Below are positions 32,613 to 46,783 of a stretch of DNA of 64,000 nt, one piece after another (within the stretch, counting starts at the first letter, position 1; each line of letters begins with the position of its first letter). The notes beneath the pieces are model-generated. The model searched no databases. It saw only the letters and a list, made by a program, of their open reading frames with translations, and was not told the DNA's origin. Source of the stretch: Dyella psychrodurans. Lineage in GTDB: Bacteria > Pseudomonadota > Gammaproteobacteria > Xanthomonadales > Rhodanobacteraceae. The position numbers and the translations under genes are program-made. Where the stretch lies: contig NZ_QRBF01000001.1 of NCBI RefSeq assembly GCF_003363265.1, forward strand, positions 652,451-716,450, given 5' to 3'.

Positions 32613-32624
32613 GAAGATTCCTGG

Positions 32625-32668
32625 CCGGGCGAGCGAAAACCGATGGCTCACGCACGCAGCTCGCCCGG
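32625..32668 (-). promoter_or_regulatory. Hairpin between riboswitch aptamer and antiporter start
   Basis: A perfect 10-bp stem (32625-32634 with 32659-32668) separates the aptamer from the ribosome binding site, ending 12 bases before the ATG. It is a good candidate for the expression platform acting on translation initiation. No T-run is present. Confidence 0.5.
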
Positions 32669-32685
32669 CGGGGTGAGTCGTGTGT

Positions 32686-32832
32686 GGCCAAAGGTCTCGC
32701 CGGACCATCGCAGACAGGCATGCCTGCGATAACCATCCGTGCCATGAAGCGAGCGCTTCAAGTGTGTTGACACGGATTCCCTGACATACGAGCGATAGCT
32801 GCGCTCGATGACAGGAATGGCTACTCCCCAAT
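32686..32832 (-). promoter_or_regulatory. yybP-ykoY family manganese riboswitch
   Basis: Three conserved blocks of the family occur in order and with proper spacing on the minus strand: GGGGAGTAGC (32820-32829), GTGTCAACAC (32764-32773, the CGUCAACA block), and GGCGAGACCTTTGG (32688-32701). These are the two metal/loop elements that meet in the known Mn2+ aptamer plus the closing stem. The expression platform follows up to the antiporter ATG at 32612. The P1 stem pairs imperfectly, so a covariance search is needed to be certain. Confidence 0.8.
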
Positions 32833-32896
32833 GGGCAATGCGAGGAATGGTACATGCGGGTCGGCAGTGGAACAACCAGTGCCGGCCCAGACGGGA

Positions 32897-41446: not shown

Positions 41447-42082
41447 TCACCCGCGATTCGGCAACAGCCCCCGCTCACTGGCAATCCGATACAAATCCAA
41501 TTCCGACCCCGCCCCCAGCTTGCCCATCAAACTGGCGCGGTGGATGTAAACCGTCTTCTGACCAATCCCGAGCTCCGCCGCCACCTGCTTCGGAGCACGC
41601 CCCGCCGCAAGCAGCAAAAACACCTCGTGCTCGCGCGCGGTAAGACGATCGATAGGGTCCAACGTATCGTTCGGACGCTCAGCGCGCCGCTGGCGCAGAT
41701 CGGAACTCAAAAACTGCTCGCCGCGCATCACCGCACGCAGCCCCGCCACCAATTCCTCCGGCGCGGCTCCCTTGGTGACATAACCGCTGGCACCGCGCCG
41801 CAGGGCTTCCGATACGTAAGGCTCCCCGTCGTGCATGCTCAACACCACGATGCGCGTGCCCGTGGCGACGCTGCGCAAATGCTCGATCAGCGGCAGACCG
41901 CTGCCATCGGGAAGCGACAGGTCGAGCGCCACCAGATCCGGGCGCCGCTGGCTGATCGCCTCGACCGCGTCGTCGGCGTTGCGGCATTCGGCCACGACCT
42001 CGAGATCCGGCTCCATCTCGATGAGCCGCTTGAACCCCTCGCGAACAATGGCGTGATCGTCGACCAGAACAATGCTGTGCAT
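41447..42082 (-). CDS. NarL/FixJ-family response regulator
   Basis: 211 residues. Receiver domain with acidic pocket D8/D9, phosphoacceptor Asp54 in ALDLSLPDG, and the conserved Lys in GYVTKG. The C-terminal LuxR-type helix-turn-helix is RLTAREHEVFLLLAAGRAPKQVAAELGIGQKTV. It is divergent from the sensor kinase at 42141, with 58 bases between the starts, so the pair almost certainly forms one two-component system. Signal and targets are unknown. A structured RNA candidate lies just beyond the kinase gene. Confidence 0.92.
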   Translation of the reverse strand: MHSIVLVDDHAIVREGFKRLIEMEPDLEVVAECRNADDAVEAISQRRPDLVALDLSLPDGSGLPLIEHLRSVATGTRIVVLSMHDGEPYVSEALRRGASGYVTKGAAPEELVAGLRAVMRGEQFLSSDLRQRRAERPNDTLDPIDRLTAREHEVFLLLAAGRAPKQVAAELGIGQKTVYIHRASLMGKLGAGSELDLYRIASERGLLPNRG

Positions 42083-42140
42083 GGGTGCACTGTATCAGTC
42101 TGAGCGACGGGTGGAAGCGGGCGACGTGTACCATTTGCCC

Positions 42141-43733
42141 ATGCGACTCAAATCCGCCCTTACCTTCACTTCCGGCCCGCTCCTCGGCCTGGGTTACGCC
42201 ATCCTGTGGGCCTTGCTCTGGCCCACCACGCAACCGGACTGGACACTGCAATTCGGCCTGCGCTTTGGCGTACTGCTGCTCTCGCCGGTGAGTTACTGGG
42301 GTTGGCTGATTGGCGGCGAACTGATGGCCGCCGGGCTGATCGATTATCTGCACGGCTACTCGCTGGGCTGGCGCATCTTCCTCTACGGCGACCTGCCCCA
42401 GCCGATCGTGGTCGCCATCTGCATGGCGCTGCTGCGCCGAGCCAACCTGCGGCCCAGCCTGCGCGATCCGGAAGAAGTCTCCCGCCTGCTGCTGTCGGCC
42501 GGCTTCACCGTGGTGGCCGCAACCGCCACCGACGCGATGATGATGGCGCTGATCCATCAATTGCCGCCCGCCGGACTACTGCACGCGCTGGGCGACGAAC
42601 TGCTAGGCAACTATGTGGGCATGCTGCTGCTAGTACCGCCACTTATCCTGGTGTGGCGCGCACGACCATCGAAGCAGGAAATGTCGGAGCTGTTGATGGA
42701 CGGCTTGCTGGTGATGCTGCCGGCCTTGATCATTCTGTTGATCCTCACCGAACAGGCCGCGCCGCAACGCGAATTCGCCCGCATCCTGTCGCTGGCCCCG
42801 GTGATGTTTTTTGCGTTCCGCCATGGTTGGCGCGGCGCGAGCTTGTCGATGCTGGTATCGAGCCTGGGCATGGCGCTCGTCGATCGCGTGTTTACGCACT
42901 CGGTTCCCGGCGCGTCTTCGCACATGTTTCTTGCGGTGGCAGGCACGGGGGCGTTGATGCTCGGTTCGGCCACCGATGCGCTTCGTCGCAGCAGCGCGCG
43001 CGTGGCCGAACAGAATGTCTATCTCGCGGCAGTGAATCGACGACTGGATCATCTCGCACGCCAGTTGCGCGACGCCGCGCGCGGCAACATGCAGGCGGAA
43101 GAAAATCAGCGCCGTCATCTCGCCGCCGAATTGCACGACGAACTGGGCCAGAACCTCACGGCCATCCAAACACACGTGAAGCTCGCTCAGAGCCGCTTGC
43201 AACACGCGGGCATGGAAGATATCAGCACATCGATCAACAGCATCCTCAGCCACATGCGTCGCGCATTGCATCGGCTGCTCGACGACCTTCGTCCCGCGGT
43301 ACTCGATGAATTCGGCCTGATGCGTGCACTGGACGAAGGCCCGATCCGCGACCTGATGGCCACCGCCGGCATGACTTACCACACCGATCTGCACGGCGAT
43401 CCGCGCATGCTGGAAGAAGACATCCGCACCGCGATTTACCGTCTTGCGCAGGAAAGCGCCACCAACGCCGTCAAACACGCGCAGGCCAGCGAATTCCGGC
43501 TGCGCCTGCGCATCGGCGAACGGGCGGGCTCGGCCCTGGCCCTGATGGATATTCGCGACAACGGCGTGGGCCTGCCCGAGCGCGTGCCACGCGGCGGACG
43601 CGGTCTGCAGGGCATGCGCGACCGGGTTACCTCGCTGGGTGGCCTTTTTCGCCTACGACCCGACCAGCAGGGCGTTCACCTGCGCATTTTGCTGCGTAGC
43701 ACCATTTCACGTCGCGAATCCAGTGACTTGTGA
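42141..43733 (+). CDS. HisKA_3-type sensor histidine kinase with MASE1-like membrane domain
   Basis: 530 residues. The N-terminal 300 residues are hydrophobic with roughly eight helices and resemble the MASE1 integral sensor domain (PVSYWGWLIGGELMAAGLIDY). The dimerisation/phosphoacceptor motif is RRHLAAELHDELGQN with His332, followed by a HATPase_c with DIRDNGVGLPE and GGRGLQGMRDRV. This pairs by type with NarL-like regulators. ATG at 42141 is used; a start 23 codons upstream is possible. It overlaps nothing, and is followed by the RNA candidate at 43765. Confidence 0.9.
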   Translation: MRLKSALTFTSGPLLGLGYAILWALLWPTTQPDWTLQFGLRFGVLLLSPVSYWGWLIGGELMAAGLIDYLHGYSLGWRIFLYGDLPQPIVVAICMALLRRANLRPSLRDPEEVSRLLLSAGFTVVAATATDAMMMALIHQLPPAGLLHALGDELLGNYVGMLLLVPPLILVWRARPSKQEMSELLMDGLLVMLPALIILLILTEQAAPQREFARILSLAPVMFFAFRHGWRGASLSMLVSSLGMALVDRVFTHSVPGASSHMFLAVAGTGALMLGSATDALRRSSARVAEQNVYLAAVNRRLDHLARQLRDAARGNMQAEENQRRHLAAELHDELGQNLTAIQTHVKLAQSRLQHAGMEDISTSINSILSHMRRALHRLLDDLRPAVLDEFGLMRALDEGPIRDLMATAGMTYHTDLHGDPRMLEEDIRTAIYRLAQESATNAVKHAQASEFRLRLRIGERAGSALALMDIRDNGVGLPERVPRGGRGLQGMRDRVTSLGGLFRLRPDQQGVHLRILLRSTISRRESSDL

Positions 43734-43758
43734 CACTGTAACTAGGAAATTTTCTAAT
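43728..43758 (+). promoter_or_regulatory. Possible promoter of the 43765-43987 RNA
   Basis: TTGTGA (43728-43733) and TCTAAT (43753-43758) are 19 bases apart, a somewhat long sigma-70 spacing. Between them TAGGAAATTTTCTA (43743-43756) is a near-palindrome (12 of 14 positions) that could be an operator. It overlaps the last bases of the sensor kinase gene. Confidence 0.4.
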
Positions 43759-43764
43759 ACCGGA

Positions 43765-43987
43765 CTCGTAAAAGGTTCGTTAGGATCGTTCAATCGATGT
43801 GGGGGAGCCGCCATCGCAAGATGGTGAGCACGGGTCAGCCGTGGGGACGGCGGGCCCGAAGAATGGCAGGACGCCATTCCGCCGGAGTCTGGACAAACGC
43901 ACGTATCGCGAGCAACTCGGATACATAGCAGGTCAAGAGACAACGGTAAGCCGTAGGGTGGACAGGAGTCCTCCCGCGGCTTTTTTT
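43765..43987 (+). ncRNA. Structured small RNA candidate with GGA-containing hairpin loops
   Basis: About 220 bases with no plausible coding frame. Successive perfect or near-perfect stems are visible: 43811-43824 with a GCAA tetraloop; 43831-43858, a six-pair outer stem enclosing a 4-bp stem with TGGGGA loop; 43861-43879, a 7-bp stem with AGGAC loop; 43903-43924, a 9-pair stem; and 43949-43981, which has an AGGA loop and is followed by seven T. Three loops expose GGA as in CsrB/RsmZ-type RNAs that sequester CsrA/RsmA. It follows a two-component sensor gene. No known family was recognised by eye; the RNA call is firm in structure, the function is inferred. Confidence 0.65.
43949..43987 (+). 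terminator. Intrinsic terminator of the structured RNA
   Basis: The hairpin AGCCG...CGGCT with inner GGG/CCC and GGAC/GTCC pairs and an AGGA loop is followed directly by a run of seven T on the plus strand. Confidence 0.85.
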
Positions 43988-44066: not shown

Positions 44067-44480
44067 TTATTTCGTGCGCTTGGGGCGCACGTAAAGCACC
44101 AGGCTGTGATCCTGGATCTCGTAGCCATGCCTGGAGGCGATCTCGCGCTGCAGGCGCTCGATCTCCTCGCTGACGAACTCGATGACCTTTCCGCTGTCCA
44201 CATCAATCATGTGGTCGTGGTGCTGACCGCGATCCAGCTCATAGACCGCCTGCCCGCCCTCGAAATTGTGCTTGCTGAGGATGCCGGCGGCCTCGAACTG
44301 GGTCAGAACGCGATACACCGTGGCCAGGCCGATATCTTCCTGGTAGGCCAGCAACTTCTTGTAGACGTCTTCGGCGGTGAGGTGCCGAACCCCGTCTTCT
44401 TCGAAGATCTGGAGGATGCGCATCCGGGGGTGGGTAACCTTCAACCCGGCTTTGCGGAGTTCTTGAGTTTCCTGCTCCAT
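44067..44480 (-). CDS. fur: Ferric uptake regulator Fur
   Basis: 137 residues. The winged-helix DNA-binding domain contains LKVTHPRMRILQIF and GLATVYRVLTQFEAAGI; the metal and dimerisation region has HHDHMIDVDSGKVIEF. In this segment the paired cysteines of E. coli-type Fur are replaced (D and S), as in pseudomonad/xanthomonad Fur, so the structural zinc site is of the cysteine-poor kind. ATG at 44480. Divergent from bamE, the standard fur-omlA arrangement, with the promoters in the 80 bases between. Confidence 0.96.
   Translation of the reverse strand: MEQETQELRKAGLKVTHPRMRILQIFEEDGVRHLTAEDVYKKLLAYQEDIGLATVYRVLTQFEAAGILSKHNFEGGQAVYELDRGQHHDHMIDVDSGKVIEFVSEEIERLQREIASRHGYEIQDHSLVLYVRPKRTK

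Positions 44481-46431: not shown

Positions 46432-46783
<352 letters not shown>

Follow-up and report, generated by a model that had tools for sequence, protein, structure and literature searches.

RNA recognition by proteins of the CsrA/RsmA type has been described for RsmE and RsmZ. As given in the available text of one report, RsmE touches RNA via positions T5, R6, Q29, R44, E46, I47, R50 and I51, stem-loops 3 and 4 of RsmZ present five-base A-GGA-X loops, with C-G and G-C pairs beneath the loop of stem-loop 3, and RsmE binds the weaker A-GGA-X sites with affinities of 1.5–3.5 µM and a six-base loop with 16 nM (PMC4005645). In Xanthomonas campestris, the RsmA-sequestering RNA RsmU derives from the 3′ UTR of comEA and stands outside the known families (PMC7694677), and the accessible parts of two reports state that no CsrB/RsmZ homologue was found in Xanthomonas genomes (PMC7694677, PMC7286519). 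For Rhodanobacteraceae, our search of open-access full texts found no CsrB-like RNA.

Here we analyse a stretch of 64,000 nucleotides from Dyella psychrodurans (the window), in which a first-pass annotation had proposed an RNA gene with GGA-bearing hairpin loops. On comparative sequence grounds, we conclude with good confidence that this is a free-standing, CsrA/RsmA-titrating small RNA of the same kind as CsrB and RsmZ, and that the UhpAB-like two-component system beside it is its probable activator. This conserved RNA beside a sensor-regulator pair, with hairpins that show the CsrA/RsmA motif, is probably a previously unrecognised off-switch for the global regulator CsrA/RsmA in these soil bacteria.

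Organization of the locus

The predicted RNA lies, where the first-pass annotation had placed it, in an intergenic interval that opens at the stop codon of a sensor kinase gene (43733) and closes with a U-tract ending at 43987. The features of the locus are as follows:

41447–42082, minus strand: NarL/UhpA-type response regulator gene (Response_reg and GerE domains), divergent from the kinase gene
42138–43733, plus strand: gene for a UhpB-like membrane sensor histidine kinase (MASE1, HisKA_3, HATPase_c), with the start codon chosen by us
43743–43759, plus strand: near-palindromic box TAGGAAATTTTCT-AATA, candidate response-regulator site, for which the commonest form in relatives is TAGGAAATTTTCC-AATA
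43781–43786, plus strand: −10-like element TAGGAT, putative in function, with TANNNT conserved in relatives
43793–43987, plus strand: small RNA, with a probable 5′ end placed by where conservation begins and by the −10-like element
43796–43808, plus strand: 5′ leader GAUGUGGGGGAGC with a mostly unpaired GGA; AUGUGGGGGAGC invariant in 57/57
43809–43826, plus strand: hairpin 1 with a GNRA-type loop; 7 pairs, two-sided changes in 5
43832–43857, plus strand: hairpin 2, tip CGU-GGGG-ACG with a partly looped GGA; 9 pairs, two-sided changes in 6; GGGGA in 57/57
43862–43878, plus strand: hairpin 3, a candidate CsrA site whose AGGAC loop is closed by C-G over G-C; two-sided changes in 4 of 6 pairs; loop GGA in 57/57
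43887–43941, plus strand: middle stem, 43887–43890 paired with 43938–43941, enclosing the CGAG-CAA-CUCG hairpin at 43908–43920; covariation in helices 5 and 6
43950–43987, plus strand: terminator hairpin (helix 7) with an AGGA loop at 43964–43967 and a U-tract at 43981–43987, candidate CsrA site; loop ACAGGAGU in 57/57
44067–44480, minus strand: fur (Fur model 174.9 bits, cut-off 146), the convergent neighbour that serves as a synteny marker, with the start taken from the model match

The kinase scores 169.3 bits against the NCBIfam UhpB model, below the cut-off of 408, and the top NCBIfam models for the adjacent regulator are MctR, NarL and UhpA, each below its cut-off.

When the window is searched with Rfam 15, only two families reach the gathering score, namely the tmRNA gene (RF00023) at 46432–46783 on the plus strand with 199.3 bits and the manganese riboswitch yybP-ykoY (RF00080) at 32614–32841 on the minus strand with 56.9 bits (cut-off 45), and the RNA itself reaches the cut-off of no family. 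The best sub-threshold match in the window is PrrB_RsmZ (RF00166), with 15.7 bits against a cut-off of 44 (E 0.18), and none of the other Csr/Rsm families of Rfam 15 reaches its gathering cut-off there. Fifteen relatives of the RNA gave seven matches at E up to 5, none of them at cut-off; the best to a Csr/Rsm family is that of the relative L226 to RsmV (19.1 of 100 bits, E 0.22), which shares a clan with PrrB_RsmZ. Assignment to a known Rfam family is rejected because the cut-offs are missed both in the window and in these 15 relatives, and an unrelated RNA family, which the first-pass annotation had named as grounds for abandoning its proposal, was likewise sought, with none above the Rfam cut-off.

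Predicted fold and covariation

The segment 43780–43990 folds to −95.6 kcal/mol, compared with −70.3 ± 4.4 for shuffled sequences (z −5.73), and 0 of 200 shuffles is as low. The predicted structure comprises a stem with a GCAA loop, a hairpin in two parts with GGGG(A) at its tip, the hairpin AAUGGC-AGGAC-GCCAUU, a longer middle stem with CGAG-CAA-CUCG and the terminator GGAC-AGGA-GUCC, such that the five or more stems of the first-pass annotation are present in the fold and covary in an alignment of 57 sequences. The GNRA-type tetraloop that it had noted, GCAA in the window, is GNRA in 56 of these 57. The strong terminator that it had described is borne out by a 3′ end consisting of a hairpin followed by seven U; the hairpin is not among the matches of the automatic terminator scan, perhaps because its stem has bulges. 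By its sequence, the RNA is a non-coding gene of its own that ends in a rho-independent terminator, as is characteristic of Csr/Rsm-type sRNAs.

Three hairpin loops had been read as exposing GGA or AGGA. In the predicted fold this is fully so for two of them, with the GGA triplets at 43869 and 43965 lying wholly within hairpin loops, but only partly for the third, at 43845, where both G are looped and the A pairs with U. Further GGA triplets had been described as single-stranded, which applies for the most part to that at 43804 and in part to those at 43884 and 43891.

The early description of the region as one without a coding frame agrees with a comparison of 68 relatives, in which a frame opening at a conserved AUG stops after 18–53 codons in 36 and stays open to the RNA end in 32. 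A coding gene is ruled out, since frames are not conserved among these relatives.

The alignment contains 57 of 68 sequences delimited by a motif rule, 11 near-duplicates having been dropped by eye; two diverged loci (L070 and L071) are missed by the rule. Over a 42-pair structure, the proportion of paired cells is 96.2% (shuffled 86.6 ± 0.4), two-sided changes are observed in 28 of the 42 pairs (shuffled 17.3 ± 1.5) and covariation scores 0.369 (shuffled 0.188 ± 0.006), none of the three values being matched in 500 shuffles, which ignore relatedness. In slid controls only 36–49% of cells pair, a control that flatters the structure on this measure because the latter was partly derived from the same sequences; as evidence, the two-sided changes carry more weight. 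Conserved structure in related genomes, which the first-pass annotation had asked for, is thus present.

Distribution within Rhodanobacteraceae

Relatives of the RNA are found by blastn in 108 of 197 Rhodanobacteraceae genomes, spanning 17 of 26 genera. Among the 71 loci of the first comparison, one is the csrA locus and the other 70 have the RNA behind the same sensor kinase and ahead of fur. In a wide search of 299 genomes of the order, run with stricter filters by which weak members can be missed, the covariance model R1 identifies 62 clear members (>60 bits), every one of them in Rhodanobacteraceae. Weak R1 matches of 17.0–19.6 bits in G001 (contig C113), G249 and G412 were dismissed as chance, as they have neither an adjoining kinase nor fur; the true G001 locus is on a different contig.

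An exact two-part pattern, searched in a collection with one genome per species (84,980 species), yields 95 stretches from Dyella, Rhodanobacter, Luteibacter, Frateuria, Fulvimonas and Pinirhizobacter, with a few records bearing higher or odd labels, for example Proteobacteria, a Thiobacillaceae MAG and Eremiobacteraeota. Dyella and Luteibacter belong to Rhodanobacteraceae in the order Lysobacterales, and we take Rhodanobacter, Frateuria, Fulvimonas and Pinirhizobacter to be members of the family too.

The box and the two-component system

A near-palindromic box of the form TAGGAAWTTTTCC-N-ATA precedes the RNA and is followed by TANNNT approximately 38 bases from the box start; the box in the window is one letter off this exact form. 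The exact box is present in 50 of the 299 genomes of the order, in one copy each and always at the RNA locus, and in 0 of the 223 genomes outside Rhodanobacteraceae. In 49 of the 50 it starts 48–50 bp upstream of the R1 match, and in the remaining genome (G001) it stands behind the same kinase, ahead of a diverged RNA. Thirteen genomes with an R1 match, including that of the window, are without the exact form. An orthologue of the adjacent regulator (at least 71% identity) is encoded by 64 of 76 family genomes, that is, by the 62 with an R1 match as well as by G001 and G025, which have diverged RNAs, and the 12 without it have neither an R1 match nor an exact box. We note that the kinase, the regulator and the RNA are linked genes inherited together, and that this co-occurrence is therefore no proof of control.

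Alternatively, the RNA could be a CsrA sponge activated by a GacA/UvrY-like regulator encoded elsewhere in the genome, leaving the adjacent two-component system with another job. GacA/UvrY drives such RNAs in other gammaproteobacteria, according to the accessible text of PMC5109040. A GacA-like regulator is encoded in all 76 family genomes sampled, yet these include the 12 that lack both R1 match and box, and 92 of the 223 other genomes encode one as well (E ≤ 1e-60); it is the adjacent regulator, rather than the GacA-like one, that tracks the RNA. Moreover, the GacA box is TGTAAG...CTTACA, which the box here does not resemble. We consider activation from elsewhere unlikely, and the comparison favours the adjacent regulator as the candidate activator. 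Of the earlier suggestion that a neighbouring regulator akin to GacA/UvrY controls the RNA, a link between the RNA and its neighbour is backed by their co-occurrence and by a locus-specific box, whereas the kinship is not upheld by the curated cut-off: the regulator scores 129.3 and 128.7 bits (genome search) against the UvrY/SirA/GacA model NF007018, for which the cut-off is 280.

Elsewhere in the same genome, a gene for a GacA/UvrY-like regulator (L192, 1501–2133, minus strand; 219.3 bits, cut-off 280) adjoins an ORF resembling the C-terminal part of RNase E. This genome also has 22 places at most one mismatch from TAGGAAWTTTTC, compared with 4 for the reversed control, so that further weak targets are possible. 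A second exact TAGGAAWTTTTC (L198, 1501–1513, plus strand), about 180 bases before a TonB-like gene, was rejected as a conserved target, as it proved not to be conserved when 16 genomes of the genus were searched; the three non-RNA sites in other genomes (L257, L260 and L262) are not beside that gene. Distant homologues of the regulator (family f2, 45–52% identity) gave no box-like match to the patterns tried (6 of 9 loci). The Legionella LetA box, TNAGAAATTTCTNA, was considered as a parallel and is not used as evidence; none was found in the open-access literature.

CsrA and the GGA-bearing loops

A CsrA/RsmA partner is encoded in the same genome by a single CsrA gene (91.5 bits against a cut-off of 27, genome search). 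Residues 1–58 of the protein are nearly identical to solved CsrA chains, and T5, R6, Q29, R44, E46, I47, R50 and I51 are all kept; Leu55, Ala57 and Pro58 of RsmE, which contact the looped-out base, are not. On the RNA side, GGA is found in the hairpin 3 loop of all 57 aligned sequences, as AGGAX in 53 and AAGGA in 4 (the latter reading CAAGGAUUG, CAAGGAUAG or CAAGGAAG when counted inside the alignment columns), and likewise in the terminator loop and at the hairpin-2 tip of all 57, such that hairpin 3 and the terminator provide the several loop GGA of a Csr/Rsm-type RNA. The five-base AGGAX loop of hairpin 3, over C-G and G-C, is like RsmZ stem-loop 3 bound to RsmE, as described in the accessible text of PMC4005645. 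The main-type loops are of this AGGAX form, for which the same text gives micromolar binding by a single RsmE dimer, and a main-type RNA would thus presumably need two sites per dimer.

From a search of the family, 20 further kinase loci were taken for comparison, 16 with a near full-length kinase of at least 46% identity and 4 with a more distant or partial one. In 14 of the 16, the box or a close variant lies between the kinase and fur and is followed by a GGA-containing stretch; in the other two, the contig ends at the box or, in G043, box and fur are both missing. The kinase orthologue of G043 (L222, 51% identity) has neither behind it, as if the cassette had moved or been lost. The 4 distant or partial loci, examined from the 6 family genomes with only such a best kinase (G120 and G176 were left out), also have neither box nor fur behind the kinase.

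Across the diverged loci, with L187 and L188 included, the terminator often has a new stem while the GGA-bearing loop persists, reading AGGA (L187, L233), AUGGA (L188, L234), AAGGA (L232), CACGGAUC (L226, L227, L230, L231) or AAGGAC (L219, L220). The AAGGAC loops are closed by C-G and have the exact C-ANGGAX-G form given in the available text of PMC4005645. Across 31 sequences that are mutually related and not independent (18 of the blastn set, including L070 and L071, and 13 diverged), 95 GGA lie in hairpin loops, counted where both G are looped and the A is looped or in the closing pair, compared with 19.5 ± 4.5 and a maximum of 30 in 100 dinucleotide-preserving shuffles, whereas the total number of GGA is 224 versus 163.7 ± 9.6. 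The folding z-scores of the 31 range from −9.4 to −1.6 and are weak for L219 and L220 (−1.6 and −2.1). L071 and L224 have a single hairpin-loop GGA each, and the hairpin-2 tip of L221, L224, L225 and L229 is GGGG without the following A. The locus offers a clean evolutionary record for GGA loops, in which stems vary and loops stay, and the proposed role as a CsrB/RsmZ-type sponge for RsmA/CsrA is well supported on comparative grounds by the covariation, by the excess of loop GGA over shuffles and by the diverged loops.

Throughout the main group the hairpin-2 tip does not vary, yet it is not a plain CsrA site. Both AUGUGGGGGAGC and CGUGGGGACG are invariant over the 57 sequences, beyond what CsrA alone would ask, as for a base-pairing RNA whose G-rich leader and hairpin-2 tip anneal to C-rich mRNA stretches, with the GGA triplets a by-product of G-rich seeds. 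Base pairing leaves unexplained why GGA in the hairpin 3 and terminator loops is kept on changing stems, and as a replacement for CsrA titration we regard it as improbable; a double role, with base pairing alongside CsrA binding, is possible. The leader (43796–43808, plus strand) and the hairpin-2 tip (43840–43849, plus strand), more conserved than CsrA binding alone explains, are possible base-pairing seeds. The CGAG-CAA-CUCG hairpin is, like the leader, conserved beyond what CsrA titration accounts for and, together with the leader, the hairpin-2 tip and the single-GGA RNAs of L071 and L224, leaves room for a second role.

Proposed mechanism

We suggest that the neighbouring membrane kinase senses a stimulus and that the adjacent NarL-type regulator is phosphorylated as a result; the regulator would then bind the box at about −44 and recruit polymerase to a promoter formed by the −10-like element, with no clear −35. 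The transcript would end at the terminator hairpin and expose GGA sites in the hairpin 3 loop, the terminator loop, the 5′ GGGGGAG and other unpaired positions, where CsrA dimers would bind and thereby leave their mRNA targets.

A separate promoter is at odds with a model in which the RNA is cleaved out of the 3′ UTR of the kinase mRNA. The RNA starts about 60 bases past the kinase stop on the same strand, the promoter scan finds no sigma-70-type site for it, and the available text of PMC7694677 offers a precedent in RsmU, an RsmA-binding sRNA from the comEA 3′ UTR of Xanthomonas. However, the box and the −10-like element stand at near-constant spacing between kinase and RNA while the distance from kinase to box varies among relatives, and we judge processing from the kinase mRNA to be very improbable. 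That the RNA is instead a structured cis element (attenuator or riboswitch) of a neighbouring gene, as its intergenic position and the terminator at its end might suggest, is scarcely credible, given that fur lies on the other strand in the 70 compared loci, leaving no gene for such an element to lead, and that no Rfam cis element reaches cut-off at the RNA position.

Within the proposed titration mechanism, we lean towards viewing the UhpAB-like kinase, the regulator and the CsrA-sponge RNA as one cassette, a dedicated non-Gac system feeding into CsrA of which the RNA would be the main and perhaps only conserved target. If so, this would represent a Gac-independent route into the Csr system that is characteristic of Rhodanobacteraceae. 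A candidate sponge with an adjoining sensor makes the question of what releases CsrA here open to direct testing in harmless soil bacteria, and would place a conserved sponge in another family of the order of Xanthomonas, whose genomes, by the published accounts cited above, reportedly lack a CsrB/RsmZ homologue.

Comparison with known systems

The RNA resembles RsmZ/PrrB of Pseudomonas in bearing several GGA, both within stem-loops and in single strands, in its five-base A-GGA-X loops and in ending at a rho-independent terminator (accessible text of PMC4005645). It differs in being longer, in scoring below the family cut-off, in carrying AGGA in the terminator loop itself and in sitting beside a sensor kinase and fur; thus, it seems to work like RsmZ, but is by the Rfam test not a member of the RsmZ family. 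With CsrB/CsrC and RsmX/RsmY/RsmV/RsmW it shares the proposed sequestration of CsrA via repeated GGA hairpins, whereas no model for these reaches cut-off and its probable activator is not GacA/UvrY, the usual though not universal type of activator for Csr/Rsm-type sRNAs. RsmU is likewise an RsmA-sequestering RNA of the same order, reported in Xanthomonas only, as far as the available text goes (PMC7694677), whereas R1 has no clear member outside Rhodanobacteraceae; by that description, RsmU is also set apart from the RNA here, which follows a histidine kinase gene and not comEA and has a box of its own. The two-component system is similar, but distinct, to UhpAB: the kinase is UhpB-like with a MASE1 domain and the regulator is near MctR, NarL and UhpA, yet all fall below the NCBIfam cut-offs, and the proposed target is an RNA rather than a transporter gene. 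Taken together, these likenesses and differences point to a new family of RNAs of the CsrB/RsmZ kind whose switch is unusual and probably dedicated.
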